A DNA stretch of 64,000 nt from Lineus longissimus (taxonomy: Eukaryota > Nemertea > Pilidiophora > Heteronemertea > Lineidae): NCBI RefSeq assembly GCF_910592395.1, contig NC_088317.1:11036001-11100000 (forward strand), given 5' to 3'. This document shows, piece after piece, positions 4,092 through 44,074 of this stretch. Each line of letters begins with the position of its first letter. The stretch's first letter is position 1. The notes beneath the pieces are model-generated. The model was not told the origin of the DNA and did no database searches. It was given only the letters and a program-made list of their open reading frames with translations. A program made the position numbers and the translations under genes.

Positions 4092-4391
4092 TGTCAGGAA
4101 TTACGCATTCCTGAACCAAGTCATTTCCTGAATCAAGTTATTAGTTCGACAAGTCGCTGCAGCTGCATGGAGCCAAGAAGTCTGAGGAAATCCTTGCGGA
4201 TTAAGCTAAGCTTAATCGTCTAAGCACCTTCTTTCATCTCTTAACATCTGTTAATTTGTAATCTTGTTTACTTAGTCAATAGTTTGTAGAAATAAAGTCA
4301 GTTGTAAAAAAGATACGATAGAGTCAAGTTCACCATCAATTTGTAGTCAGCAACTCCCCAGTAGAAAACCCGAAGTGCGGAGTTTTCGACA
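4092..4391 (+). repeat. BEL element 5' LTR
   Basis: It begins TGTCAGGAAT and ends TTTTCGACA, so it is TG...CA bounded. An AATAAA polyadenylation signal is at 4291-4296. It looks base-for-base identical to the 3' LTR. Confidence 0.97.
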
Positions 4392-4409
4392 TGGTGCCGT
4401 GACCAGGAT
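4392..4409 (+). promoter_or_regulatory. BEL primer-binding site
   Basis: TGGTGCCGTGACCAGGAT follows the 5' LTR directly. Starting with TGG, the complement of a tRNA CCA end, is the expected design. I do not assign the priming tRNA. Confidence 0.8.
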
Positions 4410-4463
4410 CTGGGAAATTCACCGAGTAAATACACAACGCAATGTACTAACGTAAAGGTCGAA

Positions 4464-8417: not shown

Positions 8418-9851
8418 GAACAAAGTGGAAGGCATAAGCTGCCTTCTCGACCCACAATCATCAGTCAATTAGGGCTCGTTCTTGACAAAAAAGGAACAAT
8501 TCGTTGCGGCGGGAGGCTTACTAATTCAGACGTCAGCTCAGACAGGAAGTACCCAATTCTCCTGCCAAATCAATCCTACATAACAACGTTAATCGTCCGG
8601 AACGCCCACCACAACGTGGTACACTACGGCTTAGGGTCCACCATGGCTTATCTTCGGGAGAAGTATTGGGTCACATCAATGCGCTCAACCGTTAAGAAAA
8701 TCATCGGACATTGTGTAATCTGTAAGAAAGTGTCTGGGCGTCCATATCTGACTCCCATCGCACCACCACTGCCAGACTTTCGGATTAACGACTTGTCAGC
8801 TTTCAAGTCCACTGCTGTAGATTTTACATCACACCTCTACGTACGAATTAAGGACTCGATACAAAAAGTGTACGTTTGTCTCTTTACGTGTTGCACCACG
8901 CGAGGCATACATCTTGAAATCACGCCGGACTTAACTGTTGAATCATTTCTAAGAGCTTTCAGACGTTTCACTTCAACACATTCAGTGCCTAGCCTCATTT
9001 ACTGTGACAATGCCAAAACGTTTACAAGCGCCGACACCGAGCTGAAACGGCTGTACAACATTGTGGGAACAGAACAATTCCAAAACCACCTGTCTAAGAA
9101 AGGAATAACATTCAAATATGCACCCGTACAAGCCAGCTGGTTTGCTGGCGTTCATGAGAGACTGATTGGTGTGACGAAACTTGCACTTAAGAAAACCTTG
9201 CGTAAATCACTCGTTCCAATTGATGAGTTTCAAACTCTCATCAAAGAAATTCAAGCAACGGTAAACAACAGACCACTCACATATTTGTCATCAGATCCAA
9301 ATGAACTCAAAGCGATAACACCGAATAATCTGATATACGGACATGATATGTCTTTGTTGCCACACGAAGGAGAAGATAACTTGGATGTAACATACGCCGG
9401 CAGAGATAAACTTGAGAAATTGGCGTACAAACGCGCAGAACGACTACAAACATTCAAGAAACGTTTCTATGACGAGTATCTCGCTAGGCTACGGGAACAA
9501 CACCAGTACGAACTTAGCAAACAAAATGCCAAAGCTGACATCATTAAAATTGATGACGTAATTCTTGTACACGACAAGGATGCCAAGAGGAGACACTGGA
9601 AACTTGGGATCATAAAAGAACTCAACAGAGGCCAAGATGGGCTGACCCGATCTGCGCTTGTCAAAACTGCCACAGGGCAATCTAACCGAGCAATCGGAAA
9701 ATTGTATCCGCTTGAGTTAACCGTTGACGAGAGCATCGAACGGTCTGCGCAAATCAAATCTGTTCAAAAAACAAAATCTCGACCAAAACGGTCAACCACT
9801 GACATTACGAGGCTCAAAATCAGAGAGCACTTGGATTACTACGGACAGTAG
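8418..9851 (+). CDS. BEL/Pao integrase portion, same frame, downstream of stop
   Basis: This is the in-frame continuation after the TAA at 8415-8417. It shows the RCGGRL motif that normally precedes BEL integrase, then an HHCC zinc region (NAHHNVVHYG... to CVICKK). The DDE core follows, with D in TAVDF, D in YCDNAKTF and E in GVHERLIG. The C-terminal DUF5641-like module (DVILVHDKD, GKLYPLEL) follows, ending at TAG. It would insert the cDNA and make the 5-bp duplication. As written it can be made only by stop readthrough or as a separate product from an internal start. The simplest reading is one recent nonsense mutation in a 1,796-codon polyprotein. Confidence 0.9.
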   Translation, partial: EQSGRHKLPSRPTIISQLGLVLDKKGTIRCGGRLTNSDVSSDRKYPILLPNQSYITTLIVRNAHHNVVHYGLGSTMAYLREKYWVTSMRSTVKKIIGHCVICKKVSGRPYLTPIAPPLPDFRINDLSAFKSTAVDFTSHLYVRIKDSIQKVYVCLFTCCTTRGIHLEITPDLTVESFLRAFRRFTSTHSVPSLIYCDNAKTFTSADTELKRLYNIVGTEQFQNHLSKKGITFKYAPVQASWFAGVHERLIGVTKLALKKTLRKSLVPIDEFQTLIKEIQATVNNRPLTYLSSDPNELKAITPNNLIYGHDMSLLPHEGEDNLDVTYAGRDKLEKLAYKRAERLQTFKKRFYDEYLARLREQHQYELSKQNAKADIIKIDDVILVHDKDAKRRHWKLGIIKELNRGQDGLTRSALVKTATGQSNRAIGKLYPLELTVDESIERSAQIKSVQKTKSRPKRSTTDITRLKIREHLDYYGQ

Positions 9852-25195: not shown

Positions 25196-28100
25196 AAAGG
25201 CAGTGATGTGTCAGTCGAGGCAAGGATGACAAGGACAAAGAATACCATTATCAGAGTTGGCTGGAAACATCACAAGCCCACTGGCTATAAGCAGGTATTT
25301 GCATCTGATGGGGGCAAGGTGAGAAAAATTCCACAACATACGCTAGATTTTAATGTGTGGAGGATATCATCGATGAAGCGAAGGTGTTGTTTTTTGAGGG
25401 TGGAAAATCAAAATTCGGATCACTTGCAGATATGGATTTAAGTCTGGGCGATAGGGAAGGAAACATACCGACTCACTTCGTGGACATTCAGGGTAACCCC
25501 TGTAATTATGGCCAATATCTTAAAGCACGTTGATTTTACACGACGGACTGTACACTTTATTTGATGTTAAGGAAAAAAGCTGTGGTTGAAGATGCCCCAA
25601 TGACTAGTGCAAATCCCCCAACAGACCTTGGTGGCGCTTATTCAACTAAGTCCGAAGCCGGTGGTGAGGGTGTGCCAGCAACTGAGACCAACAATGGAAC
25701 GTCATTTGATAATCAATCTCGAAAGGAACCATCTCGAACCGCGACCATGTACTCCAACAACTGGATTGTTCCTGATGATATTCTTCCAAAGAGAGACCGA
25801 CTAATTGTACAGCAGGACGCTGGTAAGGAAGATGAACAGGAGGCAGAAAGTAGCCAACGCGAAGCAGATCCAGAGAGATCAGGAGCAGAACGCGACGGTG
25901 AGGAGGATGAAGATATGGAAGACCAATGCCGTGGCAAATCGAGGTCAGAGAAAAAATGTTCCAAACACTTAGACAATGAGGGTAAAGACATTGATGAACG
26001 TTACGGAAGTGAGTCGGGGTCTAAGATGAAAGGTGCTGTAGACATAGGCAAGGACGGTGAATATATAGGAGAAGGTCGCATGGAGGGCAGGGCAACAAGA
26101 GAGGACAACAAAAGTCTACAAGAAGAAGACGTTGGTGAGGGCAGGAGATATCTTGGTTTTGCTGGAGGAAAAGGTGGGCTTGAGGGAGTTGCTAGAGAGT
26201 TGTGGGCAAATAGACGGGAGGCTATTATAGGAGACAGAGATGAGGGATTGGAACAGATTGCAGATGACATTCCAATTAGTTATCAGACAGTAGAGGCTGC
26301 AATCGGAAAGGCCATTGACTATGAACCTGAAATCCCCCAGCGAGCCACTTTTCGCATAACACAGGAACAGTGGGATACTATGCAAGAAGGGGCATCTAAA
26401 AACTACCTTAAAAGAGGAATGTGGTACAAACCGATCGTCAGGGGAATAAGGGAAAGTAACCCGTACTGTACCATGTTGGTGAGGAAACACACCAGAGGAA
26501 AACAGGATCCGTTAACCGCACATCCCGATTGTGCGCATTTTAAAACGGAGCTATGTTCAATCGACGCAGTCGTTAAACTCGATCGGAACCTAAATGCGAG
26601 GGTTATATACAGGGGAACAGTTTGTCACAAAATGCGTCAGCAGCATGCGCGTCCAGTCCGTGGCCAAGAACGACGAGATCTCCAAAGAATTTTTGCATCT
26701 GGAGAGATGCAACACAATGAATATCTCAAGCGCATCACTGAGAAGGGTTCAGACCTGTTGGGGGTGCATGGAAATTGTGATGATATTGGAAAGACTAGTC
26801 AGGTTTTCCGACAAATAGCGCATGAGGCAAACATGCAACTTGCATTCGACAGAGATGAAACGACGAGTCTATTCAAGATGAAGTCCAAAATGGCGGCTGA
26901 TAATAATGAAATGGTCCAGGGACCATGTGCTCACCTGTGTCGAAGGGGAGGCTATGGAGTCAGTGATTCTGACATTGGTAAAGCTGTATATATCATTTTA
27001 TGGTCAGACCAGCAATTGTCAATGATCCCTGTATGGTGCACATGATGTGCATTTGTAAATACAAGGTCTAATTTGGTGTGGTAATCAGTTGTTGACCTTT
27101 GGCCCCCTATTGGCCAAACCGTAAATCGTATGACGCCACGATTCAGTCTCTGAGTAAAGGTCACCCAAGGGTATATATGTACCAAGTTTGAGTTCAATAG
27201 CCTCAGCGGTTACAAAACGTGCCACCATTGACTAACAGCGGTGCCGTCGGCGAACTTTGACCTATCTTACCTTGAAAATTAGGTCAAATCAAAAACTCGG
27301 AGGATATGTGATGTCCCATTAGTAGAAGTACCTACCATATTTTTTTCAAATATTTCGGACCAGTAATAAGGGAGAAAACGCATTTCTTCATTTTTTACCT
27401 TTGGCCCCCTGGTGGCCAAACCGTGAAACATATGAGACCGCGTTTTGGTCTCTGAGTAGTGGTCACCAAGGGGTACATGTGTACTAAGTTTCAGTTCAGT
27501 GGCTTTAGCGGTAACAAAACGTGCCACCCATGTCTAACGACGACGGACGACGACGGACGACGACGACGGACGACGACGACGGACGACGACGACGGACGAC
27601 GACGGACGCTGCGTGATGGTAAAGGCTCACAGATGAGCCAAAAATGCAAAAATACCTGGCTTCATTCAGTTAATCGCGTTAGACCCATAATTTGTCTTCT
27701 ACTGGCGGGAAGATGGGATCCGCCTTTTCCACGATCTAAGTCAGAGGGATGCAGCGGTAATCGATGCAACGGGGAAACCCAAGAAAGGGAAGAAGTATTT
27801 GTTCTATGAGGTTTGCATGCGGAACCCAGTGGCAGGCTCACCGCCAATCCCTCTGTTTTCAATGCTTAGCACAGTTCAATCTCTTCCCCTCATTCGATAC
27901 TGGATATCAGAGTTCCGTCGGCATGAAACGTAGATATACGGTTATAATCGAGCAGCAATCCCATGTCAAATAAATATGGACCGGGCTATGGTGTTCATCT
28001 TGGCTATCCTCCAGGAGTTTAATGGAGAGACCCTAAAAGGGTTCCTTGAAAGATCATGGAGAATTGTTAAGGGGCAGGCAACAGAATATGATTTGACGAA

Positions 28101-29640
28101 GAAAACACTTCCACACGCATGCTGCAGCCATGTCATGAAGGACGTCAAAGGTATATTCAAGAAATATTACTCAGCAGACATGGAATGTACTGCTTTAGCA
28201 CCATATTAAATGCCGGTTTTCTTTATGAGGCTGAAGCAGCTTTGCTGGATTTGTTTATCATCGCACATGGAACTCACCTCACAACCACCGTCCGCGAGGC
28301 AGGCGAAAGAATGAGCAAAAGAATAAACAGCATCAAAAGAAGTGAAAAGAAACAAGCGGGGCGGAAATCTAAGGATACTTCAACCGATGAGTTCGGATCA
28401 GTTGATGAATTTCTCGTTGAATCGCTTGAAGACACTAATGATAGCGAAGAGGACTTCCATAATAGGGCAGAAGGAACTCGATATACTGAGTGGGCTAAGG
28501 TCACAGTTCAAAAAGGGTGTGATATTGCCGGAGAAGATGAGGTCGTCGACGAACCGGAGAATGCCAGGTACAGCCCAAAGTTCATTGAGGAATTGGTAAG
28601 GCTCCTCTTACCAACAATCCCACTCTGGTCGGCACTCATGGTCAGTGATCTTTCACAACATAGAGTGTCTTATCCATACCAAAAATATCATTTTCCAGGA
28701 AAGGGGAATAGCGGAGAATACCAGAATATAATGAAGGCTAGCATGACGACAAGTCTGCAGGAAGGACGCTTCAATATTCTGAAGAACACAATTCTAAGGG
28801 GCGGGGCAAACAACAGGCTTGATGTCTTCTCTTCCAAATTGGAAGAAAGTACCAGAGTGCTTCACATGCTAACGATAAAGTCATATCTGAAGGGAGCAGC
28901 AGGCAAAAAGGAAGACAAAACAACTAAACCTGTAGAGGAACAGTGGGATAAAAAGAGCAGGGAACCACCGCAGGTGAAGGACAAGAAATTAGGAAAGTAC
29001 CAGCAGCCCCGAACAAGATCGATCCCGGTCGTAAAACCTAAACCGACAAAGAAGAAAGAGGATGTCCGAACGACAAACGTTAAGTTTTCTGACATACCTA
29101 AAATCCGAATGCCGCAAGAAAAGGAGCCAGGTCCAAAAATTAAATCGCTGGCAAAGGATAAAAATGATGTTGGAAAGACAAGTGCCAAGCCTTTCAAGTT
29201 TTCTGACATGTCGGAAGAAAAGAAGCAAGGTCGAAACCTTAAAGCGAGGGCAAAGGCTACGACAGCGACCACACCAATCCGAGAGCCAGTGGTTAGACAT
29301 GGTAGTGATTTCTTTTCAAGCCTTGTAATCAAACAGATGTTTAACCGCGATAATAACTGTTAGTTCAATGCAACAGTTCAGGCGGTACTGGCTGTTCCGT
29401 CTGCAGTGAGAAAAATGATCGGATTTCCAGTAGAGCAGTTCAATGACATTGGTGAGGTACTACAGGAATTCCTTGACTATATGACCAGCAATAAATGTCA
29501 TAGTGTTCCTTACAACACACTAAATGAAATGGCCAGGGCCATTGTGCTCACCTCATGTGGAGGAAAGATGGATAAAGAGCATGGTATTGTGTCATGTAGT
29601 GTTAGGTTTGATGTAGGTCCAAGCAATTACAATTTCCCCA
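25196..29640 (+). pseudogene. DDE-transposase-like protein with C-terminal USP domain, broken
   Basis: Part of a large invertebrate gene family I recognise by layout, not by name. Order: a short module IIRVGWKHHKPTGYKQ to EAKVLFFEGGKSKFG (25,250-25,480); an acidic linker; a zinc-ribbon-like block NPYCTMLVRKHT...CAHFKTELCSIDAVV (26,450-26,570). After an intron the DDE-like core follows: FIQLIALD.. and VIDATG (27,750), then MDRAMVFILAILQEFN and CCSHVMKDV (C-x2-H, 28,120). The block LLPTIPLWSALM is at 28,600, then a Lys-rich tail. The USP Cys box NRDNNC.FNATVQAVL is at about 29,340. Lesions: TG duplication at about 25,357; TGA 25531; TAA 27688; TAG 27931; frameshift about 28,187; TAG directly after the catalytic Cys codon (about 29,361). 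The function of the intact family is unknown; the domains suggest DNA transposition plus deubiquitination. Confidence 0.65.
27046..27642 (+). repeat. Dispersed repeat copy 1, inside an intron
   Basis: Repeat with diagnostic blocks: a TTTGGCCCCCT..TGGCCAAACCGT palindromic block (twice), AGGTCAAATCAAAAA, CGTGCCACC, a (GACGACGGAC)n microsatellite at 27,538-27,607 and a GATGAGCCAAAAA end. It ends a few bases before the exon that encodes KIPGFIQLIALD. Related copies are at 29,640-30,064 and 45,603-46,158. Confidence 0.75.
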
Positions 29641-30064: not shown

Positions 30065-30813
30065 AGGGAGTTCAGTGAGGCCCAAAATGGCGTCACGCCA
30101 AGGGTTTTCCAGAAAATTCACATATTTTCAGTTCATTTATTTTCACAGAAAAATACCATAAAATATCTAACCTTCAAGAAATAAAGCGTAGATATATCAT
30201 ATCTCTCACCTTCATGTGTCATAAATTCATTTCTTGGCGATTAACAAACAAAATTATTCAATTCTGACAGATGATAACAACATGTTTTCCATCCACGTTT
30301 AATTGCCGGTAGTGACAAAAATACATTACCGGGAAATTCGTGACCTCAAATGAACTGGTGCCCGATTGGCTATCACAGCAAATGATGGCTCATTTTGCTG
30401 GGAATTCCCTAGTCTTTCCCGGTATCCAAGTGGAATTTTTCAAGAAACAACAACCTTGTCCTAGGTACCATATTTTACACACATCACATGGCAACGACCC
30501 GGAAACTTACCGTGCATAATGCCGACATCCAGACTGGAAACGAGGTTGCCGATACCGCTGTTCACGGCGCTCAAAACAGTGAATTCGTCGTGATTTTATC
30601 GGGGTTTTCGTGAGTAACTTTTTATTACACTTTAACATCTATGAGGATTAATATCTTGTCCATCTATTTAAACCCATTTCACTGATGATAGCGGCCAGGA
30701 ACCGAGACATTTTGACAATTTTATCTGGCATGACAAGCGCTTCTCGCTTCCGCGATTTAAAAATGGTGTGGTGCGGAGGGGTATCGAGTGCGTCGCCAAC
30801 AGCCGGTATCCCG

Positions 30814-30846
30814 TGACGTCAGCAGGTGGAGGACCCAGTGACGTCA
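30814..30846 (+). promoter_or_regulatory. Two perfect CRE palindromes in the LTR promoter
   Basis: TGACGTCA occurs at 30814-30821 and 30839-30846, start to start 25 bp, 12-44 bp upstream of the TATA-like box. Both are intact in the 3' LTR (43073-43080 and 43098-43105). TGACGTCA is the CREB/ATF consensus. I infer stress or cAMP responsiveness of the element. Confidence 0.75.
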
Positions 30847-30857
30847 CTCCCGGACCG

Positions 30858-30865
30858 CATAAAAG
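30858..30865 (+). promoter_or_regulatory. TATA-like box of the gypsy LTR
   Basis: CATAAAAG lies just after the CRE pair. A start site about 25-30 bp downstream would leave the GTAAGT donor at 30914 inside the transcript. Confidence 0.6.
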
Positions 30866-30910
30866 CCCTCGCAGGCCCAGTCTCGGGGCAGAAAAACAAC
30901 AGAAGTCAAC

Positions 30911-30919
30911 AGAGTAAGT
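30911..30919 (+). promoter_or_regulatory. Splice donor in the gypsy LTR R/U5 region
   Basis: CAGA|GTAAGT gives a near-perfect donor (GT at 30914-30915), downstream of the inferred start site. Its natural partner is the acceptor at 41,059, upstream of the TatD-like ATG. Confidence 0.6.
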
Positions 30920-31067
30920 TTATCCCGTATCTTGTCCGGTTTCGTGCACATTTCATACATAATGCACCGTATCATGCTCGCACCTGAATATTCGTGGTAG
31001 TGCACACCTGAATCAGCCCGTGGGTCACCCCGTCCGGCCTCTCGCTAAAAGTGGCCGGCACTACAAT

Positions 31068-31080
31068 TGGCGACGAGGAT
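31068..31080 (+). promoter_or_regulatory. Gypsy primer-binding site
   Basis: TGGCGACGAGGAT begins two bases after the LTR, as expected for tRNA priming. The tRNA is not assigned. Confidence 0.75.
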
Positions 31081-31528
31081 TTCTTAGTTAGAACCCACTG
31101 CGGCTGTAGTTTTGCGATGGTGCAAGTCAGTACACTGTGCTGACAACTTCGGGCGAATGTATTTTTGCCTTAGTAAATATATTTAGCTCAGACATTTTGG
31201 GTGTGGCAATTAGTATCTCTCGTATCTGAAGTTTTGTAAAAGTTTGCGACTAATATTTCACTTGCACATTTTGAATTTGTTGGTTTATTCCGCACTGTAT
31301 TTTTGTACCGAGCACCGGCGACGTATACCCGCATATTCAGTCGTATCAGTTTCATTAGTCAGATTGTGAATTATTATTGTGTGCCACGCCCGTCTAGGCC
31401 TTTGAATTATTTCTCTCTCGTCTAGTGAATACCTAGGCCCGGTTCTTAGAATTTCTATTCTGATTTCGTAATATTACTATTCGTCCGCCTAGTTCTTATT
31501 ATTATATTGTTATATTACCATTTTCGTC

Positions 31529-33600
31529 ATGGCGTTTAGATTTGCTTCCGCTTCGGAAGATTATGACAATCCGGTTTCAATAAATAAGTCCTCGGATGAG
31601 GAGTTGGATCGTTTGCTTTGCTTTCCTTCTGCCGCTCCGGCGAGTCGGACGGAGTTGGTATCTTTGAAAGAGGCGCGTGCGCGGGGTCAAATATTTCGTT
31701 CCTACGACAACTTGTTGTCCATCTTTAACTATAGGACTCTTGACATTTGGCGTAACTTGTCTATTATTGATTTCTCTTCTCCATCAAAGGACCAGAGTGT
31801 TCGTCCAAAGGGACGGAATATCACTTGGGGGAACCCTCCTCCTGCCAATGTCGAGGAATTAGGCCGTACTGTAGGCCTATTAGCTCCTAATGGGAGTTAT
31901 TCTCTTAGGCCCACTGCGCGAGCTCCGCCAGGTTTTGATGCGCGACCACAAGTTGTAAGTACGCCATCGCACGATCGAAGAGACTGGTCTGAATTCGATT
32001 TATCGGACGGTCTGGAACCGATTCTGTCACGTGGGCCACCCACGTCACAGTATCATGGTAATCCCATGTTGCGTTCTTCGGTCCAATCTCCGGACGGCAA
32101 TGAGCTGGGGAGGCGACTGGAGGACGTTGGGATCCCGTCATTGTCTACGTATTATCCACCTCATGTACCACAACGTCCTTGTCCTAATCCAAATGTTCAA
32201 CAAGGAACATATCACCAGAGAAGTGCTAGTACTGGATACCCAATACCTCCCCCGAATTACATTTCAGGTCAGCACGGACAGGTGTTGAGTCGTGCCCCAT
32301 TTCCACCATTTCAGGTTCCTCCCTATTTGAGTGCAGGTCCCTGTCCAGGCTTGACTGCGACACCACGTCTCCCAAATCATTTTCAGGACAATAGACAGCC
32401 GGAATATAATCCTCAATATTCCCAATATCCCCAATATTCTCCGTTTACAGCTGTGGTTCCACCTCAACCCGGTGTCCAAGTACGTCCATTTACTCCTGCT
32501 CCTCCACATCTATCTGCCCATTTTCAGTCACCCGAGGTACGACGAGAGGATGTTCATCGATATGATTCTACTTCCATGATGCCCCCCGTTTCCCATTTTC
32601 AGATCCTGGGCTGCAACATCATGCAATTCCGGAACAGATGGATCACTCCAGGGACGACTCACGTCATTCTCATTTCCGTCCATACAATCCACCCCCAGCC
32701 CCGCTCCCTATTTCCGATGGTGGTGGCCAGTGATCAACCTTTGATTTACAGATGCAGAGGGCGGCTACCAAGTATAGCTGGTCGGAGGTGGAGAAATTAG
32801 ATCGTCTCATTGACGCTCTTCGGGGGAGGGCACTCGAGTTTGTGGCGGAGTTGCCTCATTATTACCAGAACGATTACAATCAAATTTATATGAAACTACG
32901 TTCCCGTTTCGGGAGGACCGAGCCTCCGGTTTCGTATCACCGTCGTCTGGCTGAGCTTGAACAATATGAAAACGAATCGTTGGCGGAGTTCGCGGAGCGC
33001 GCGCAACGTCTTTCGTCCCGTGGTTTTTCCTCTGCGGAGCCCGCGATTATTGATGAGTTGGCGGTGGAGGCCTTCTTCCGAGGCTGCCGGGAAAAGAATG
33101 CCGTCATTTTTGCTATGGACAAATGTCCTCTGAACATTGATCACGCCCTCAGATTAGTCCAGTCAAATCTGGATAATCAAAAAGCTATTTGGGGCCGTAC
33201 AAAACAGTCAAAATTTTATAGTCGTACTACTCTTCCTGTAAGTGATGGTCCAAGCATACGTGCTGTCTCTGCTGGTGGTCTGGAGGGACGTGTTGGAGTT
33301 CTGGAGACCGATGTCTCTGTCCTCCGCTCAACCGTCGAGGCGACACGAGAGGATGTCTCTACTATAAAAAACACTGTGTCCTCGACGGGTGAGAAGGTGG
33401 ACAGGGCACTCCGTTCGCTTGACGGTCGGCAGCGCTCCCGTTCCCGATCCTCCAGTCCACGGCGGGGCTGTTCAAATTGCGGTTCAATGGATCACTTCTT
33501 CAGAGTCTGCCCGGATGTGTCATGTTACTTCTGTAAAGAAAAGGGGCACATCAAGGAGAACTGTCTTAAATTGTCTCCGTCACCGTCCCCAAATGCTTAG
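31529..33600 (+). pseudogene. Gypsy gag, frame-broken
   Basis: ATG at 31529 after a 463-nt leader. The first 360 codons are Pro/Tyr/Gln-rich and disordered. Near 32,600 the frame must change by one base, and a TGA lies at 32,729. The second open part (from about 32,752) is a typical gag capsid: RAATKYSWSEVEKLDRLIDALRGRALEFV, then ESLAEFAERAQRL. A heptad-like stretch (VGVLETDVSVLRSTVEATREDV) follows, then an Arg/Ser-rich patch and two CCHC knuckles (CSNCGSMDHFFRVC, CYFCKEKGHIKENC). It ends at TAG 33598-33600. Gag forms the particle and binds RNA. The lesions mean this copy cannot make full-length Gag without help. Confidence 0.85.
33588..33594 (+). promoter_or_regulatory. Candidate -1 frameshift site at the gag-pol junction
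   Basis: The heptamer C_CCA_AAT sits in the correct codon phase (TCC CCA AAT GCT TAG), one codon before the gag stop. A -1 slip enters the pol frame, which is open from there to the LINE insertion. The X_XXY_YYZ form fits, though CCCAAAT is not among the strongest known heptamers. Confidence 0.5.
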
Positions 33601-36600
33601 GGACTGAAATGTATGGCCAACATTCAGTCCCTACCATCGTAAGGCCAACTTTGAGTCATGTTTCTCCCACCATACGGCAATTAGCTGAGTCTCATCCGTG
33701 GGACTCGGACAGTCGTATGGTTCAGGTTCCTTCATCTGGATCTGTAAGTGAATATAGTCTCGGTCGCAACTTGTTGGAAAGTCAGTCAGGTTATGTGTGC
33801 AAGTCGTCACCGTTTCAGGTCGTGTATGACGAACTACCCGACGTTGCGCCGGAGACTGAGTGGACTAGTGAGTTAGCAGAAGAGCTTTGTCTTGCTGGGA
33901 CACCAGCCCCTGGCCTACCACCTGGTGGTTTGGACTACAGCGACTTTGGGGATTACGATTTTGTTATGTCTCGGAGGTCGTCCCAAGCGAAGTGGAGTGG
34001 TGACATTGTAGCTCCAGATAGTTACATTTACTCTGAAGGTTGTGGCGTGGCTGTCCCAAGTAATCCGTCTCCTGTAGAGTCCAGTTTGCCAGTCGGTTGT
34101 GACTTTGTCCCTCCAAATATATCCGGGATGTCCCATGATAGTGTCTGTCGGGTTGTGTCTCGGCCTGTTGAAGGTTGTGACATTGTCCCCTCGGAGGACT
34201 CTCGGGGGATGTCTCGTGTTGGAGGTGGTGAAGTGCTTCCCCTTGCTGACTACTTTTTACCATTTACATCAATGATCTAAACAAAGCAAGTAAATTCTTC
34301 AATTTTATAATGTTTGCGGACGATACAACTTCACTTAGCGAATTACATTCTTTCTCTACCAAGGTAAACCACATATTAAACACCGAGCTATTAAACATAG
34401 CAAACTGGTTAAAAGCAAATAAATTATCTTTAAATATCTCAAAAACTGAATTTATGATCTTTGAACGAACACACAAAATTTTTAATGGCATCCTAGATTT
34501 ACAAATTGAAGGCACGAAACTCGAATGTGTTGAATCGTTTAACTTCCTTGGATTACTTATAAATAAGGATCTTACTTGGACTTCACATATAAATCATATT
34601 TCAAAAAAAATATCAAGGGCAACCGGCATTATCAATTACTTAAAACATTTTATTCCACAGAAAATTCTAATAACGATTTACCACTCTCTTATCTCTGCTC
34701 ATCTCAACTATCAAATATTATCTTGGGGCTATGATCACAACGAAATTTTAAAATTACAAAAGAAAGCTATTCGTGCCATTACTCTCAGTCATCCTATTAG
34801 TCACACTGACCCTTTATTCATAAAGCTGAAACTACTCAAACTACCGGACTTACACAAATTAATTGAAATAAAATTTCTCTATAGATTTTTAAAAAAGGAT
34901 TTACCAGTGTACTTCATGCACAATTTTTTCTCATTTAACAGTGATGTTCATAACTATCCCACAAGAATTAATGATAAATTTAAAATACCAAATGTAAGAC
35001 ACGAATATGCCAAAATGACACCACGATACAGTTTAACTAAATTATATAATTCTCTCTCAAAACAAACTCTAAGCAAACTCCACTCAAATTTTAGCTTAAA
35101 ATCCTTTTCAACATACTACAAAAATGAAATTTTGGGTTCCTATAATAAAAAGTGCCAAATTCGCAACTGCTATGTTTGCGACATTCGTTAAACTTTTTTC
35201 GTCTTATAACTGTTATTACTCACTCCTTCACTGTAAAATAGAACTGTCTTGTAAATTAAATTGTAAATCCTGTATATAATAATTAACATTGTACTACATG
35301 TAATTCATAAGGGAGCAGGCATTAAGCGGCCAATCTGGTCTTGTTCTGCTCCCGACCACAATCAATATCATGTATTTCATTAATGCACCTTGTAAATTTT
35401 GTTGGTCGAATAAATATTCATATTCATATTCATATTCATATGACGGGATGCCCCGTTCTGTTAGAGGTTGTGACAATGACCTTTCGGGTCTTTGTCAATC
35501 TGTGCCGTTCCAATCCTTTGATCCTGGTAAGAGATGATTGTCACCCGCCCCTGATTCTTCTCCGGACGATTTAGAGCTGGGGAGGGAGGGGGGAGGTGTG
35601 GTTTCATCATCTAATCCCGTTTCGGTTATCTCTCATTTTGACCTCGGGTCACCACCAGCCCCTGATCCTTCTCCGGACAATTTAGAGCTGGGGAAGGGGG
35701 GAGGAGGCGTGGTGTCATCATCAAATTCAGTCTCACTCATCTGCCCTTTCAATCCTATATTGTCACTTGGTTCCTCAACCAACACTGGAGACATTGGCTG
35801 TATCCGGGAAGTAGATTTTGGGGGTGTGGGCGTAGTGGGGGAGAGTGCCGTGGTCCTGGCTTCAATACAGGGAATGGTGGCTGAAGCGACAATAGACAGT
35901 GCTGCTCAGGTTACCGTATTGAGTACAGACTACGTGCGTTCACTCCCTGTTGCTCTCATTTCTAAAGAATCCGTAAAACTTAAAGGTGCAGCCAAGGATA
36001 GTGACATTATTGCTTCGTATGTGGAGGGGGTGGAGTTCAGGATTAGTGATCAGGTGTTCTTGGTAAACGCGTACATTGCTCCGATATCAGATCCCATTCT
36101 GTTGGGGTTGGATTTTCTCAAGGCACAAAAGGCTGTTATTGACCTTCACCTTGAGAATCTAATCTTGAATGATATCCCAATTCCGATTAAGCTGGTACCC
36201 AATGTTCCACCGGTTTCCGAACCCAATGTACGCAACATCCGTATGGACTCATCCTCCCACGTTGTTGGGAACTTGGATGAGAAGTCTGATGTGTTGTCTT
36301 CGGGACTTAGAACTCCCATTGATCTCTCTCCTAGTTGTGAGTCTCTTCCTCCCGATCCGGATCGCAAGGCTCCTGTTCCTGAGTATTTAATGGATCTATA
36401 TCTCCGTTCCATAGTACACCTTACGGACGAGCAAGCAGTGAAAGTTGCTGACCTCCTGAATGAATTCCAAGATGTCTTCTCAAAAGACGAATTCGATATT
36501 GGAACTTTTTCGGGGGTGCAGCACCATATAGACACTGGTGATGCTGAGCCCATTAAGGTCCCGACTAGACGAACTCCTGTTGCTTTTGATGATGAGGAGA

Positions 36601-39600
36601 GGCAGAATCGCACTTTGATGTTGAAGGCCACTGTCATTGAGCCTGCTTCATCTCCCTGGTCTGCGGCCCCGGTGTTGATCCTAAAAAAGACGGCAAGGTC
36701 CGCTGGTGTTGTGATTGGAGGGGTCTGAACTCTGTTACAAAAAAAGATGCATACCCTGTCCCAAACATTGAACAATGTTACCACACACTGAGGGGGTGCA
36801 AGTACTTCAGCACCCTAGATGCTACTTCCTCGTATTGGCAAATTGAGATTGCCCCCATTGATCGAGAAAAAACTGCATTTTCGTCTAGCAAATACGGTCT
36901 CTTTCAATTCCGGAAAATGGGGTTCGGACTTTGCAATGCTCCCGCGACGTATCAACGTGCGATGGAGCATATTCTCTCTGATCTGTTGTGGGACAAACTG
37001 GTTTGTTACTTGGATGACGTCATTATGGGAGAATTGACTTTTGAAGACCACCTGGTACTCCTCCGTAAGTCACTTCTCAGGTTCCGTGAACACAAACTCA
37101 AGTTGAAACCTCGAAAATGCAACCTCTTTCAACTAGCGGCTAAGGTTTTGGGTCACATTCTCGATGAGCGCGGGATTGCAGTCAATCCCGAGAACATCGA
37201 GAAAGTAAAGTCATGGGCCCCACCTAGGTGTCTCCGAGAGTTGCAATCTTTCCTCGGCTTCGCTAATTACCACAGATCTCACATCAAGGATTTTTCGGAG
37301 ATTGTGGTTTCACTCACCGAATTACTCAGTAAATCAGTCCCATTTCAGTGGGGAACAGAGCAGCAGTCCGCTTTCGTACGGTTACGGGAGGCCCTGTCGT
37401 CTGCTCCGGTGTTAAGTTATCCCAACGATTCTGACCCCTTCATTCTAGATTGCGATGCTTCTGATCGCACCATAGGAGGGGAACTCCTACAGGTTCAGAA
37501 TGGGGAGGAAAGAGTCATTGCATATGGGAGTTATACCATGACACCGGAGCAACGGCGTTACTGTACCACCCGTAAGGAGTTGTTGGCGTTGGTAAGATTT
37601 ACCCGGAAATTCCGGCACTTCCTTCTCGGGAAGAAATTCACGGCCAGAACAGATCATGGCAGTTTGGCTTGGCTTATGCGATTTAAGCATATTGAGGGCC
37701 AGTTGGCTCGTTGGTTGGAAGAGCTAAGCTGCTATGATCTCCAAATTATTCATCGTCCGGGTAAATTACATGCCGACGCTGACGCTCTGTCTCGACTCCC
37801 TGATTTGCTCCCCGCTTGTGATTGTTATAGGGCGGGTATCTCCTTAGACAGTCTTCCTTGTGGTGGTTGTGCTTACTGTACCAGGGCGCACAATCAGTGG
37901 GCACGCTTCGAGGAGGAGGTGGATGATGTTTTGCCTTTGGGAATTGGGATGGTTTCATTAAATTCCTCAGACGACTCTCCTGAGGACCCTATGTTGAACC
38001 CCATGTGTAATCCTTTTCTTAGTGTCTTACAAGATCAAGATTTGGACTCAGAGTTGATTTGGGATGGTGAGGAGCTGGATTTTATTCCGGACATTGTCAC
38101 TTCGGGTACTGGTCGTGTAGACGTACTGCCTTGTTTGTTTGAAGAGCTGGATCATTCAGATTCATTGGTTGAGTTGTGCGACGGGCCTGGGACGGTCGGG
38201 GGTGGTTCTGTTTGTGACCCTGTTTCCCCCCCGGACGTATCTGAGCTGGAGGGGGAGCAGGATCTGATAGAGCCGGTGTGCCCCCGGTCCCCTTCTTCCC
38301 CGGCGGACAATTCTGGTTGTTCAGATGTTCCCGATCTTTCAAAATATTAATCTCCTGTGAATTGGACGGATAGTTTCACACGTGATGAACTAGAGGCGTC
38401 TCAGACTCAAGACCCAGATTTGGGAAAAATCATTGGTTGGCTTAAGGAAGGTGTTGTGCCGTCCAAGTTCATGCTACAGTCATGTGGGCCTGTGGTTAGG
38501 CATCTTTGGTTATGTCATACTCAACTGGTATTGGAGAATGGCCTCCTTTGGTATCAGTGGGATGATGTTGTTAATTCCCGTTTGCTTCTTATGGTTCCCT
38601 CATCTCTCAAAGAACGTGTCTTTGGTATAGTTCACGATAACATCACATCCGGCCATCTGGGGTACAAAAATACTCTTTCTCGTCTCAGACAATCATTTTA
38701 TTGGCGAGGTATGGGTCAAGATTGTTATGCATATGTGGCCTCGTGTTCCATATGCAGTATCAATAAGAAACCCTGCCGTAAAATGAAAGGCGCTCTTGTG
38801 CCATTTACGGCTTCTGTTCCGATGGAAAGGGTCCATCTGGATATCCTAGGTCCGTTTATTCCGAGTTCTAATGACAATCTTTACATTCTCATGATTATAG
38901 ATCAGTTTACCCGTTGGATTGAGTGCTTTCCACTCCCCACTCAAGGAGCTGAGCAAATTGCTCGGACGTTCGTCTATGAGTTTGTCGCACGCATGGGTTG
39001 TCCGTTCGAGATACACACAGATCAGGGCCGTAACTTTGTTTCAAAGTTATTCGGAGCTGTCTGTCGTCTCCTTCAGATAGCAAAAACCCGCACTACGCCT
39101 TATCATCCTTCGTCTAATGGTCAGGTTGAGCGATATAATCGCACTCTTCTTCAATTAATTCGTTGTTTCCTGGGAGAGGACCAGCGGGATTGGGATAATG
39201 ATTTACCCCTTCTCGCTGGTGTTATCCGCTCTATGCCGAATCGGAGCACTGGTTTCACCCCCAACATGCTTATGTTGGGAAGAGAGGTTCACATGCCCTC
39301 CGACCTGGTCCTCCGCCCATTCCTAAAACAACCTCCCGCAGCATCGGCCGGCGAATACGTACTGAAGCTGCGGGAGAAACTTGAGTTTGTACATCATATC
39401 GCTCGGCAGCACTTGGGTGTAGCCGAGCACCGTAGAAAAAAGGACTATGATGTACAACTCCGGGAAAAGAGGTATCAGGCCGGGGATATCGTGTACAAGT
39501 CTGACACTGCGTCCAAGGTTGGGCAAAGCTCCAAACTTAGACCGCCTTGGCTTGGTCCGTTTCTGGTTGAGAAGGCAATCTCGCCGGTTTTATATCTCAT

Positions 39601-40147
39601 CGACGGGCAGAGTAAGAACCAAGTCGTTCATCATGATCGGCTTAAGCTCTGTCGAGATCGGATCTTGCCGTTCTGGCTTCGGAGAAAGCGTCATCATCTC
39701 CTTGGTCCGGACGATTCAGTGATTGCTCCATGTACAGATTCCCCTGACATGGAAACTGGGGTGTTTCCCTTTTGTGCTCTGGATGAATTGGAGTTTGCGG
39801 ATGTTGCCCAGGGTTCATTAGAGAATATTTCTCCTTCATTACTCTCAGTTTCTCCTCCGTCCGATGATGCGCTGCCCGGACGATCTGTAGAGCTGGGCGG
39901 GGCTTCCCGGTTGGAGGAGACAACTTCTCACCATGAAGCCGAGTTGGACCACAGTCTGTCTTCCTCCCCGTCAGTTAGTCTCCCTGAAATCAGTTTCTCT
40001 CAGGATATGCCCCCGATTCCAGGGTTACCACTCTGGGGGGTACGTGATGGGTACGACGAAACTGACGAACCACCCTGGAGACTGTCTGATGGACGCGGTG
40101 GGAGAAGGCGGCGGTTGCCGGCTTATTTGGGAGATTATATTCTCTAG
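33594..40147 (+). pseudogene. Gypsy pol: protease, RT, RNase H, integrase, broken
   Basis: A long low-complexity spacer leads to a protease with ATIDSAAQVTVLS (D-S-A variant) and LLGLDFL. Reverse transcriptase follows (WSAAPVLILKK at 36,660, LDATSSYWQIEI, GLCNAPATYQRAME and YLDD at about 37,010). RNase H has FILDCDASD, TTRKELLAL and DADALSR. A variable linker precedes an HHCC integrase with LDILGPF, IHTDQGRNF and NGQVERYNR. A GPY/F-like module (LRPPWLGPFLVEK) follows; there is no chromodomain. Lesions: LINE insertion 34,251-35,440; TGA 35535; one A missing in the A-run 36683-36688 inside RT; TAA 38348. Pol copies and integrates the element. Confidence 0.9.
34251..35440 (+). mobile_element. 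5'-truncated LINE inserted in gypsy pol
   Basis: A reverse transcriptase C-terminal half starts in FTIYINDL and holds the FADDT catalytic box at about 34,310. It continues through the thumb region (NFLGLLINKDLTWTSHINHI...) to a CYVCDIR end at 35,191. The 3' end has AATAAA and an (ATTCAT)n tail. TGAC flanks both sides (34247-34250 and 35441-35444). It is AT-rich, unlike the gypsy around it. Jockey/CR1-like by general pattern; clade not assigned. Confidence 0.85.
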
Positions 40148-41044
40148 ATTACATGAAACTAGGCATTCCATAGTTGCGGGCTTGGGTTATTTTTTCCCTT
40201 TACCTTTCTGTGTTCAAACACTATCTTACGATACGTCCAATTCTCGTCTATCGGCGTATCGATTTCCACTATTTCAAGCTTCTTGAGACTGATTGTTGAA
40301 TTCTGCCGGAATCAAATTGCCGAAGTTGAATTTCTCGTAGTCCGTCTTTTCCCCAATCGGTTACTCCGTGTTAGTACTCTGTTCGTTTGTCTTGTTCTAT
40401 GGGGGATTTTATATTTTTTATCCTGTCTGAAATTCAAATTGGTGATCTGTTCCTTTTGTCGATCGTTGATACCTCATTTGTTTCAACATCGATTCAGTGT
40501 TGTCAAATTTTAAATTTACAGTTTTGTAGCAAGTTCCTGCTTTGCAATCTTGTCCGTGCCGAGCTGAGATGAATCTCGGACTAAGCACGATTTCCTTGCG
40601 GTAACAAAATAGGTTTGTTTGCAATTTCCATGTTAACTGGATCAGGCATGATTCAGCTGGTTTGACCGGCTTCGTAAAATAATTTTTTTTGTGTAAAACC
40701 AAAGTCCACTAAAAATCTAAATCAAGCCATTTCTGCATTAAAGCTAAACCGTTCTTTATCAGGATGGTTCAATACCACATTGCGTCATCAGTGTGTTTAC
40801 ACTTCATAAAATCGGTCATTATTTCCTTGTTTCTGGTTACCGCATTACCGTCTCAATGGGGTTGAGTGGTGAATTACAGTTGCAGATAAGCAACCTTCAT
40901 TTCGTTCTCATTTTTTTAGTTGAGTTCAGTTTTCCGTTTGGGTTCTAATTCTGGTTAAATTAAGACGGGAACCCCATTTTCGTTCTAGTTATTTTCTGTT
41001 CTCAAATATATTCGATTCACCATCCGACCCTATTGGTAAAAAGG

Positions 41045-41060
41045 TTTCTTTCGTTACAGG
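41045..41060 (+). promoter_or_regulatory. Splice acceptor before the TatD-like ORF
   Basis: TTTCTTTCGTTACAG|G: a pyrimidine-rich tract ending in AG at 41058-41059, seven bases before the ATG at 41066. This is the position an env acceptor takes in retroviruses. Confidence 0.6.
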
Positions 41061-41065
41061 CAATT

Positions 41066-42263
41066 ATGTCACCAACTAAGGTTCAGTGTCCGGTTTGTCC
41101 AGCCAAGGCTGGACATGTCAAGCGCCATGTCCTGGAGGCTCATCTCCCCCCTTTTTTTAACATCAAGATTTTGATAGCCGATAGAGCTAATCAGTATTTT
41201 GGATTTCTTCATAAAATTTCTAATTTTGCGTGTGAGGGGGACTTGCGTGAGCTTGTCCCCTATTTGTACGAACGCGGGGTATGTCCGGGTCCGTCTGACA
41301 CCATCTGGTCGGACCACGAGATTTTATTCGTTCGGGAACTGCGTCTGGCGGAGTGGCTCCCCCCAACCTGGGACCTCTCCGTCGGATTCAGTCTAGCGCA
41401 CTTATGGCATTGGAGGACGGCGTGTCGGGTCTTGTCGCTGTTCCCGGAGGCCCTTCGGGCCTCGTTCTATCTACCTCCTTTAATAGCGCCAAGACTCGCC
41501 CCGCCGCTCTTCGATGCGCATTTCCATCTGGACCGTCTACCTGGTGGGGTGGGGATGGCTATCGATCCCCTGGTTACCGGGGCGGTCGCTAGCTATTGTT
41601 TCCCCTCCTCCTGGCCTCGCGCGGGTGGTCCTGGGGTCTCGGATGGCAGGGTCTCTTTTGCTGTGGGACTCCATCCCAGGATCGCCCATAATATTTGCGC
41701 GACAAATTTTGGTACCAGATTGCAGGCAGAGGTGGCGCTTCTTGGACCGAGGGTGGTGGCCATCGGTGAGGTGGGGTTGGATTACGTTAGTAATCCAACG
41801 CCTCAGGTTCGGGAGGCACAGTTCAGGGTTTTCCGGGTTTGTGTGGGGGTGGCTAAGGACCGGGGCCTTCCCCTTGTTTTACACTGTAGGGGTAACAAGT
41901 TGTCCCCGGACTCCGCCGGCCTCGACTGCCTGGACTATCTGAAGACTGTCCTCCCCTCCTCCCACCGCATCTATCTCCACTGCTTTACCGGGGGTTGGGA
42001 GGTTGCCCTTCAATGGCTGTCCGCTTTTCCTGCGACTGTCTTTGGCGTGACCATCGTTCGAAATTTGCCGGGGGTGCGGCGAACTCGTTTAATCGCGTTT
42101 GGAACTGGCTTCACTGGTGGTGGAGACGGATTCCCCCTACCTCCTTCCTAGCCCTGGCAAAATTACCGAAGTGGTAGAGTATCTGGCCGGGATTGTGGGC
42201 GAGTCTAGGAGGACCGTCGCTGAAGCCACCAGCGAGGCGGCTCTACGGTTCTATTCGTTGTAG
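41066..42263 (+). pseudogene. TatD-family metal-dependent nuclease carried by the gypsy element, one frameshift
   Basis: The ATG at 41066 is the first after the acceptor. Residues 8-26 form a C2H2-like finger (C8, C11, H21, H26). A helical linker follows, then a TatD hydrolase domain from about 149: D-A-H152-F-H154, GLHP at 201-204, GE235-GLD, LVLH273CRG and YLH305CFTGG. Near 42,060-42,105 the frame shifts by one base. The next frame then reads VVETDSPYL with the catalytic Asp (42129-42131) and a normal TatD C-terminus to TAG 42261-42263. All six canonical metal ligands are present. TatD enzymes are Mg-dependent 3'-5' exonuclease/DNases, some acting in repair or apoptosis. Here it replaces env as a third gene; its role in the element (cDNA trimming, host defence, repair) is inference. 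Confidence 0.85.
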
Positions 42264-42428
42264 ACCTGCATTTTCGAGCGAGCAGGCCAGGCTTTGTGCA
42301 ATTTTCCAGGTAGGTCTGGCCTGTCCCGTCGTCCGGTATTTCTCTTTCCGAGGAACGACCAGTGTTGTCATTTTTTAAATTTATTCCGGTTCATTCCTGG
42401 GGAGGGTTTTACACTCGGTTTACTTATA

Positions 42429-42470
42429 CGGGTTTGGCCCCTTCGGACAATCAAAGGCTGAGGAGGCCCT
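42429..42470 (+). repeat. Short direct repeat in gypsy 3' region, copy 1
   Basis: CTTCGGAC...AAAGGCTGAGGAGGC here and again at 42,891-42,917 (CTTCGGAT...AAAGGCTGAGGAGGC). The two copies bracket the three hairpins. Confidence 0.7.
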
Positions 42471-42492
42471 AGTTTTTTGTACTAAAATTAAG

Positions 42493-42786
42493 TTGTCTTG
42501 GTAACGGGGTGTCCTAATTTAGTATGCTCCTCGGACTTTGTGAGCTGAGGGGTCCTTAAGGACATTCCAGTTTCCTTTATGTATCTATTAACTTGTCTTT
42601 GGAACGGGGTGTCCTACTTTAGCATGCTCCTCGGACTTTGTGAGCTGAGGGGTCCTTAAGGACATTCCTACTTCCCTCCGTGTATATAGTTATTATAATC
42701 ATGATCTAAAGTGCCCTTGGAACTGAGTGTCCCATCGTAGCACGCTCCTCGGACTTTGTGAGCTGAGGGGTCCTTCTGGGCATTCA
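42493..42786 (+). repeat. Three tandem conserved RNA hairpins in the gypsy 3' UTR
   Basis: Three units at 42493-42568, 42593-42668 and 42712-42786 share GCTCCTCGGACTTTGTGAGC. In units 1 and 2 GGGGTGTCCT pairs with AGGACATTCC (10 bp, two G-U) and CTCCTCGG pairs with CTGAGGGG. In unit 3 the outer stem changes on both sides (GTGTCCCA with TGGGCATTC) and still pairs with one bulge. Paired changes argue for a selected RNA structure. The position between the last ORF and the polypurine tract recalls retroviral export or packaging elements. Confidence 0.8.
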
Positions 42787-43013
42787 TAGTCCAAATTTTG
42801 TATAATATACTATAAAGTCTAGTTTTTTCATACATATTATAGGCCCGAGTGGGGTTAAGTTTTTTTTTTGGTAAAAAAGCCGGCGTGTCTCTTCGGATAT
42901 AAAAAGGCTGAGGAGGCTCGTGCAGGGAATTACATTGTACAGTACATCGACAAGATCATGCAGCTCCCAGAAGACGGTGACCACCCTCATCTTCCCGAAT
43001 CCCGAGACGACCT

Positions 43014-43025
43014 AAGGGGGAGGAA
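43014..43025 (+). promoter_or_regulatory. Gypsy polypurine tract
   Basis: AAGGGGGAGGAA directly precedes the TG of the 3' LTR. Confidence 0.85.
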
Positions 43026-43324
43026 TGTGGTGCGGAGGGGTATCGAGCGCGTCGCCAACAGCCGGTATCCCGTGACGTCAGCAGGTGGAGGACCCAGTGA
43101 CGTCACTCCCGGACCGCATAAAAGCCCTCGCAGGCCCAGTCTCGGGGCAGAAAAACAACAGAAGTCAACAGAGTAAGTTTATCCCGTATCTTGTCCGGTT
43201 TCGTGCACATTTCATGCATAATGCACCGTATCATGCTCGCACCTGAATATTCGTGGTAGTGCACACCTGAATCAGCCCGTGGGTCACCCCGTCCGGCCTC
43301 TCGCTAAAAGTGGCCGGCACTACA
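43026..43324 (+). repeat. Gypsy 3' LTR
   Basis: A 299-bp copy of the 5' LTR, followed by the ATGG duplication (43325-43328). Confidence 0.95.
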
Positions 43325-44074
43325 ATGGCGGACGGTTGGTGAAGTTGAAGCGAGCGGGCAGAACGATCGTTCTAACTGCCGTTTCCCCCAAGATTGAACA
43401 CACAAAATACCTGCATCAACATTTGGAGTAGTTTTAGCGATCAAAACATCATGATATGTGTGCAATGTGATCGGAGAAACGGCACACGGACGGTGAATGT
43501 GTAGTGGGGAGTGAGTGCGAATATGTAAATAGCAGTGTACACGGCACACAGTAATGGAATTGCATCTTCATTTTCTACGGTTCGCGCATGCGCATGAGTG
43601 CCTTTTTCGTGCCATTAATTGGTTTTCCCCCCTCTGTTATGTGGTACTGCAGGGGTTGAAAAAAAATTTGTTATGAAATGAGCTTGATACTACAGGTAGT
43701 CTTCTTTTTTTCAGTTGAGACATGGTAACCAAAGATGAGCTTCTTGCATTGTCTGGATGGCAGTTGCAGGTTATTGAAGATTTGGCACACTAGAAGCCCG
43801 TCGAAGGTATGCAGACATGACTGAGTAGGCGTGTGAATTATGTATTGGTGAAACTTGCGCGTCTCATGTTCAGAGAGCTAGAAAATAAATGAATATTACA
43901 TGTACATGTATAAGAAATGAAAAGTCAGAAAACAGATTTGTTCAAAAATTTATTTCTCACTTTAATGTAAATAAGGAATACAGGAAAAATACTATAGTAG
44001 GTCTAATACTTTCCACAAGATAAGATGTTTTTTGTTCTCAATGTCAATCTCACAGTTGATTTGTTTCTTTACAG

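Follow-up and report, generated by a model that had tools for sequence, protein, structure and literature searches.

The window analysed here, the whole 64,000-nucleotide stretch of the Lineus longissimus genome (contig NC_088317.1, positions 11,036,001 to 11,100,000), carries a 12.6-kb Ty3/gypsy retrotransposon with long terminal repeats (LTRs) at 30767-43324, whose third open reading frame (ORF3) encodes a C2H2 finger and a TatD nuclease domain. The two LTRs measure 299 bp each, differ by 2 mismatches, end in TG...CA, and have ATGG on both flanks (Table 1). Membership in Ty3/gypsy rests on gag, followed by protease (PR), reverse transcriptase (RT), RNase H (RNH), and integrase (IN) in this order, and on the LTRs, the target-site duplication, and the polypurine tract (PPT), all of which were found; the RT piece at 36917-38347 is closest to Ty3 RT among solved structures (PDB search, E=4.4e-37). 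Because the LTRs and ATGG flank it, the PPT lies 3' of it, and gag and pol stand in order on its 5' side, the TatD ORF is internal to the element and occupies the env position, as an earlier interpretation made from the letters alone (the sequence-only reading) had proposed. The reading frames of the window copy are broken at several points, and ~1.2 kb of inserted sequence, probably a non-LTR fragment, separates gag from protease; the related C2 and C15 copies do not have this insertion. Judged from its sequence, the window copy is a dead element.

Table 1. Features of the window element; the last row refers to sister-lineage loci L042-L044.
Feature	Position	Strand	Basis
Target-site duplication ATGG, 5' copy	30763..30766	.	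LTR comparison
5' LTR, 299 bp; TATA-like CATAAAAG; weak donor-like AGA/GTAAGT at 30914	30767..31065	+	
Presumed primer binding site TTGGCGACGAGG...	31066..31085	+	read from sequence, presumed
gag region: Retrotrans_gag and CCHC knuckle, three overlapping frames	31493..34253	+	
Nested insertion of ~1.2 kb, weak RVT_1 match (E=0.005); ends approximate	34254..35440	+	
Aspartic protease, reverse transcriptase, RNase H; frame-broken in window copy	35538..38347	+	Pfam
Integrase: H2C2 finger, rve core, p58 C-terminal domain	38351..40147	+	Pfam
Spacer from integrase to ORF3, 0.9 kb; no long ORF in the ORF3 frame	40148..41059	+	
Direct repeat, 24 bp, 22 identical to 42360-42383; left breakpoint of TatD-less derivatives	40495..40518	+	
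Splice-acceptor-like site, rank 21/3691 AG in window	41042..41059	+	weight matrix
ORF3: C2H2 finger, middle part, TatD domain with 5/6 ligands (HxH, E, H, H)	41066..42148	+	
TatD domain end in other frame (ETDSPYL ... stop), sixth ligand; start approximate	42090..42263	+	
24-bp direct repeat, second copy	42360..42383	+	
89-nt unit x3, spacings 100 and 118, non-coding	42487..42793	+	short tandem array
Polypurine tract AAGGGGGAGGAA, directly 5' of 3' LTR	43014..43025	+	read from sequence
3' LTR, 299 bp	43026..43324	+	
Target-site duplication ATGG, 3' copy	43325..43328	.	
TatD-less finger/middle ORFs	L042: 366-1193; L043: 334-1173; L044: 347-1174 (minus strand)		

ORF3 starts with ATG at 41066, between the integrase and the PPT. 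Its C-x2-C-x9-H-x4-H finger occupies residues 8-26, and Pfam matches TatD_DNase at residues 149-320 (E=5.9e-24). HxH, GEVGLD, HCR, and HCF lie in one frame and ETDSP with the stop (42261-42263) in another, which places a single frame break near 42.09 kb. All six TatD metal ligands (HxH, E, H, H, and D) are encoded in the window copy, the D after the break, exactly the arrangement of six ligands and one frameshift that the sequence-only reading had described. The break is shared with the C2 copy; the other near copies read through the domain end without it.

Homologues were gathered by a protein search (best 120 of 227 matches) and a profile search (best 120 of 169), which together yielded 237 distinct TatD proteins, many of them bacterial or partial. 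The finger pattern (C, 2-4, C ... H ... H[L/M/V/F]P) occurs in 24 of 238 sequences, the window ORF included, and among the matches listed the named members of this finger-TatD family belong to Crassostrea, Saccostrea, Pecten, Mercenaria, and Lytechinus; one oyster cluster comprises 153 sequences on 77 contigs. In an alignment of 37 hand-chosen family rows, five of the ligands are kept in 37, 36, 37, 37, and 36 rows and the sixth in 34 of 35 (two rows being gapped in that column), with the window row, misaligned through its own frameshift, as the sole sixth-ligand exception; the ligand check proposed earlier thus came out in favor of conservation. The predicted model of one relative, P0127 (pLDDT 84.9), contains a TatD barrel and a helical middle part and matches TatD structures with TM-scores by target of 0.58-0.89 (top 18 matches), and structure searches with this model returned nothing named beyond TatD and its distant relatives. 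An acidic N-terminal motif such as FVPDY, located ahead of the finger, is common to P0007, P0011, P0016, P0121, P0123, P0127, P0136, and L015 and is not found in the window ORF. Two proteins from Sedimenticola and Thiodiazotropha bins, each named 'TatD family hydrolase' (P0133 and P0142), also fall in the finger-TatD family and look like host DNA in symbiont bins.

The 391-Mb genome of the window was searched with the window ORF, and since this ORF was the query, the counts of TatD places are lower bounds. Besides the window itself, the 21 matches cover five near places (89-97% identity) and twelve divergent ones (27-34%). Three copies, L009 (C15), L010 (C17), and L011 (C2), all show the order IN-spacer-TatD-tail-LTR, with nucleotide identities to the window of 98-99% (IN), 94-98% (TatD), and 89% (one tail piece), so the predicted order of gag, pol, TatD, and LTR is kept in other copies. 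L012 retains most of TatD and part of the spacer, with no pol or LTR in 10 kb, and L013 retains a 3' piece of TatD with LTR pieces. Target-site duplications of 4 bp are GGAC in the C2 copy and GAAG in the C15 copy; the C3 copy is also duplicated, and the C13 copy is not clean. Between the window and four other copies, dN/dS of TatD equals 0.33, 0.41, 0.34, and 0.44 (synonymous/nonsynonymous changes 17.5/17.5, 24.7/31.3, 6/6, and 14.5/19.5), below 1 in the comparison proposed earlier, and that of the pol pieces in the same pairs equals 0.28-0.97, the changes counted including neutral ones that followed insertion.

Same-strand pol (30-51% amino acid identity) also precedes TatD at four of the twelve divergent places. 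At L015, PR-RT-RNH-IN (pieces at 30-51%) is followed by a finger-TatD ORF of 481 aa; L019 and L022 have IN and then TatD; and L018 has PR-RT and then TatD, enclosed by 404-bp direct repeats 99% identical to each other. The LTR pairs of L015 and L019 were not found within the pieces read. To judge the link from the integrase side, 122 integrase matches (121 of 1,522 candidates scored) were divided by identity: 9 are near (96-100%), 14 are sister matches that fall at 13 places (49-54%), and the remaining 99 are distant (34-43%). All were subjected to one uniform test, namely a listed TatD match on the same strand within 15 kb downstream. Among the matches scored, it was positive for 4/9 near, 6/13 sister, and 0/99 distant integrases, and the 99 distant ones had no TatD match within 30 kb on either strand. 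The six sister gaps measure 1.2, 1.6, 2.7, 7.8, 12.0, and 12.2 kb. A 4-kb reading of the seven remaining sister places with the family profile turned up ORF3-family sequence at five (L042-L045 and L048), giving 11 of 13 sister places in total; L045 has an ORF3 reaching into TatD, and L048 has TatD fragments.

LTR elements are known to acquire host sequence, and it would be in keeping with this habit if the window copy alone had recently transduced a host TATDN gene or mRNA; however, TatD occupies the same position in the same-family copies and in the sister lineage, where it is only 25-29% identical to the window TatD, and the sequences form one clade. Single-copy capture was rejected because TatD stands at the same place in other copies, and we regard it as extremely improbable. 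The chance insertion into one copy that the sequence-only reading had considered is likewise not the case, since the same-family copies and a ~50%-divergent sister lineage keep TatD at the same place.

Two trees of 49 chosen rows both place the finger-TatD sequences on one side of a branch, with support of 99/91 and 98/92; branching deep inside the clade is weak. In this phylogeny, of the kind suggested earlier, the finger-TatD sequences are one clade, the rows including one TATDN2-like sequence and no TATDN1 or TATDN3. That row, P0025, which we take to be TATDN2-like, branches next to the finger-TatD clade, between it and the bacterial TatD rows. P0025 has two CCHC knuckles and a TatD domain, and its CCHC part weakly matches the window gypsy segments (phmmer, E=0.004); it may be a host gene or may have a gag-like origin.

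The link recurs in other genomes, in the oyster only weakly. Among the 237 listed TatD matches, a phmmer search with the window gypsy segments found retroelement parts joined to TatD only in P0161 (E=6e-34) and P0145 (6e-4). In P0161, an RNase H end and tether are joined to TatD; the match, 61% identical to the window pol over 90 aa, takes in the cysteine-rich stretch after RNase H, and the TatD part is only 27% identical to the window ORF. In P0145, from Saccostrea cucullata, a protease end is joined to TatD, and over 180 columns the protein shares 87.8% identity with P0121, which is a complete finger-TatD protein. Scans of viral contigs and genome contigs found no relative. TATDN2 has been reported in the giant-squid Hox region (PMC6962438), which we treat as a lead only.

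With hand-written splice-site weight matrices, an acceptor-like site was found adjoining the ORF3 ATG (0-6 nt) in the five lineages looked at. Its score is 9.2 in the window copy and 11.3 in each of four near copies; elsewhere it is 7.9 in L015 and L045, 7.5 in L019, 9.2 in L022, 12.2 in L020, and 3.6, 7.6, and 5.7 in L042-L044. Of the 12 ORFs looked up, 11 score 5.7-12.2 and the twelfth 3.6, against a chance rate of such a site per 80 nt of 0.25 (score 6) to 0.37 (score 5). Because the site abuts the ATG in five lineages, translation of ORF3 from a spliced subgenomic RNA is suggested. Metaviridae with env, such as the errantiviruses, also have a third ORF after pol, expressed from a spliced subgenomic RNA; it encodes a fusion protein there, in contrast to the predicted enzyme here. 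The position and the spliced look would suit an env-like protein, as would the best 19-residue hydrophobicity mean of ORF3, 1.65, just above the usual cut-off of 1.6 for a membrane span. This segment nevertheless lies inside the TatD barrel, eight of nine relatives reach at most 1.45, and the ninth reaches 2.11, again within the TatD domain; moreover, Pfam names TatD alone in ORF3 and the fold is that of an enzyme. No viral env or fusion relationship was found, Pfam giving only TatD, and an env-like ORF3 is hardly credible.

Taken as a whole, the best explanation appears to be that ORF3 has long belonged to the element and is no passenger carried by a single copy: a probably spliced, dispensable accessory nuclease gene of one Ty3/gypsy lineage, with a substrate proposed by analogy. 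We assign this reading a probability of about 0.78. A number of results pull the other way. The oyster link is weak (P0145 pairwise E=9e-6), and with the P0145 N-terminus as the query none of 42 candidates scored. The LTR donor is weak, at rank 117 of 3876. No pol was present in the stretch read at five of the twelve divergent places (L014, L016, two places in L017, and L020); L021 has gag and TatD with pol only on the opposite strand, L023 has only a weak RT, and L024 has another pol, 30-43% identical. In three of the 11 sister cases the gap is 7.8-12.2 kb, where coincidence or nested insertions are possible; two sister places, L046 and L047, have no ORF3 within 4 kb, and the distant integrases were read less closely than the sisters, the control of three read for 3 kb in the same way (3 of 99 by profile) showing ORF3-family sequence in 0/3. 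Ligands have also been lost: the first His in L009, one later His in L024, and one ligand each in P0132 and P0002.

To these must be added the copies of the same family that lack the gene. The LTR search of the genome gave 26 matches and revealed five same-LTR copies without TatD (L032-L036; 5/9 near integrase places), which have LTRs at both ends, two of the ends being incomplete. Their LTR mismatches, where comparable (four of five), number 1/299, 0/299, 0/263, and 1/289, and those of three TatD-bearing copies 2/299, 3/298, and 7/298; the open frame that holds their integrase runs to 1,530-1,796 codons in three of these copies and to 1,035 in a fourth. The TatD-less form thus looks the more recently active, and since it combines younger LTRs with long open pol frames, ORF3 is not required; its loss from young copies shows the gene to be optional or able to act in trans. 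Four of these copies have one common junction (window ~40506 to ~42481), and the fifth has the same left point and a right end in the second 24-bp repeat near 42371, for which template switching at the repeat, with an extra small deletion in four copies, is the simplest reading. Were ORF3 instead a recent gain, the TatD-less copies would be ancestral and the repeat made at insertion, and a C10 derivative with one repeat copy does resemble an empty site; against this, TatD stands at the same place in elements with integrases 49-54% identical and in P0161, and the TatD-less copies, 98.6-99.1% identical to the window in pol, have the younger LTRs, so a recent gain seems very unlikely. Absence is read as loss because of this pol identity and the presence of TatD in ~50%-divergent sisters. 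Same-LTR copies without the ORF, which the sequence-only reading had named as evidence against itself, therefore do exist, and they look like deletion derivatives; its claim of a gene belonging to the element stands, and the gene is dispensable. Near C8:8990738-8993001 and 8994669-8994966 (G000), three LTRs of the family lie on one strand with a spacing of 1.97 kb, perhaps a short tandem derivative.

The last adverse point concerns which part of ORF3 matters. L042-L044 keep an ORF of 276-280 aa with the finger and middle part and without TatD, and no TatD-family ORF of at least 40 aa follows in the 4 kb read. ORF3 could accordingly be mainly a nucleic-acid-binding regulator that serves export of unspliced RNA, packaging, or escape from silencing through its finger and middle part, the TatD fold being secondary. 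Two distant gypsy controls with other post-integrase ORFs (317 and 366 aa), one with finger-like cysteines, fit this possibility, as does a protein of the Cer1 LTR element that is reported to be required for exporting the element's genomic RNA from the nucleus (PMC10309623); yet few residues of the family are as well conserved as the TatD ligands, and we consider a primarily regulatory role unlikely, if well short of negligible.

On the preferred reading of an accessory nuclease, the finger and middle part would bind nucleic acid and bring the metal-dependent TatD nuclease to intermediates of the element, most likely its RNA:DNA hybrids, its R-loops, or its 3' ends, by analogy with what is reported of human TATDN2, and ORF3 would help the element without being required, since derivatives of the family that lack TatD have spread. 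The sequence-only reading had proposed trimming of cDNA ends, help with integration, or action on competing DNA as candidate jobs. Since a reverse-transcribing element makes both, hybrids and the defined 3' ends of reverse transcription are our tentative choice of substrate, put slightly below even odds; action on host defence RNA or foreign DNA is possible but unlikely. Human TATDN2 is an RNA 3' exonuclease and an endonuclease on R-loops, as cited in PMC12709183; like the predicted ORF3 product, it is an animal TatD nuclease with an N-terminal extension, and unlike it, it is a host gene with a disordered N-terminus (PMC12709183).

Other enzymatic third genes are on record. The bdelloid rotifer LTR elements Vesta and Juno carry an ORF3 encoding a DEDDy exonuclease or GDSL enzyme (PMC5408684); they resemble the window element in having an enzymatic, non-env ORF3 after pol, one type being a nuclease kin to 3'-end processing enzymes, and differ in their RNase D-like nuclease fold and rotifer hosts, the name TatD occurring 0 times in the text of that paper. 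Orchid Ty3/gypsy elements contain an ORF for an AlkB-type m6A demethylase reported to be active in vitro (PMC9289625), likewise an extra enzymatic ORF fixed in a Ty3/gypsy lineage, although the host is a plant, the enzyme a demethylase, and the acquisition recent. Among the papers found to pair TatD or TATDN with retroelements, none by title or abstract start concerned TatD in LTR elements, bioRxiv and most subscription papers lying outside the search. Enzymatic ORF3s are already known in LTR elements, and TatD as ORF3 was not found in the literature searched.

Several further features were recorded. L021 (C11:6.14M) has gag-like and TatD sequence inside 196-bp direct repeats and lacks pol on the same strand; it may be a non-autonomous element in which the nuclease was retained. 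A different dispersed repeat at L014, L016, and L017/L025 (C5:16.36M, C12:8.53M, and C3:16.77M), 95-99% identical between places, contains an ORF of 1,017-1,070 aa (the single one scanned had no Pfam match) and then a TatD ORF, and may represent another type of TatD-carrying mobile element. The post-integrase ORFs of the two distant gypsy elements, L049 (C6:6.24M; 366 aa) and L050 (C10:5.62M; 317 aa, beginning with the finger-like cysteines), indicate that third genes may be common among gypsy elements of this genome. The window itself also contains a BEL/Pao element (4365-9848) with Peptidase_A17, DUF1759, and integrase, and two long open frames (25534-27042 and 28092-29360) that precede the 5' LTR and have no Pfam match.

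We lean towards the broader view that this Ty3/gypsy lineage, with a spliced finger-TatD third gene, is present in at least three host genomes (that of the window, an oyster, and that of P0161), and that the majority of the high-copy 'TATDN2-like' genes in marine invertebrates are copies of it. The suggestion of the sequence-only reading that an element gene could explain high-copy TATDN-like annotations is supported, and multi-copy TATDN annotations in invertebrates could be transposon genes. With this element, a TatD nuclease would join the small set of enzymes known to be encoded by third genes of LTR retrotransposons. Finally, L042-L044 form a natural split of the finger and middle part from the TatD part, and loss of the gene, or of the nuclease domain alone, would provide pairs with and without it in one genome, and thereby a way to explore what benefit a retroelement draws from an accessory nuclease.
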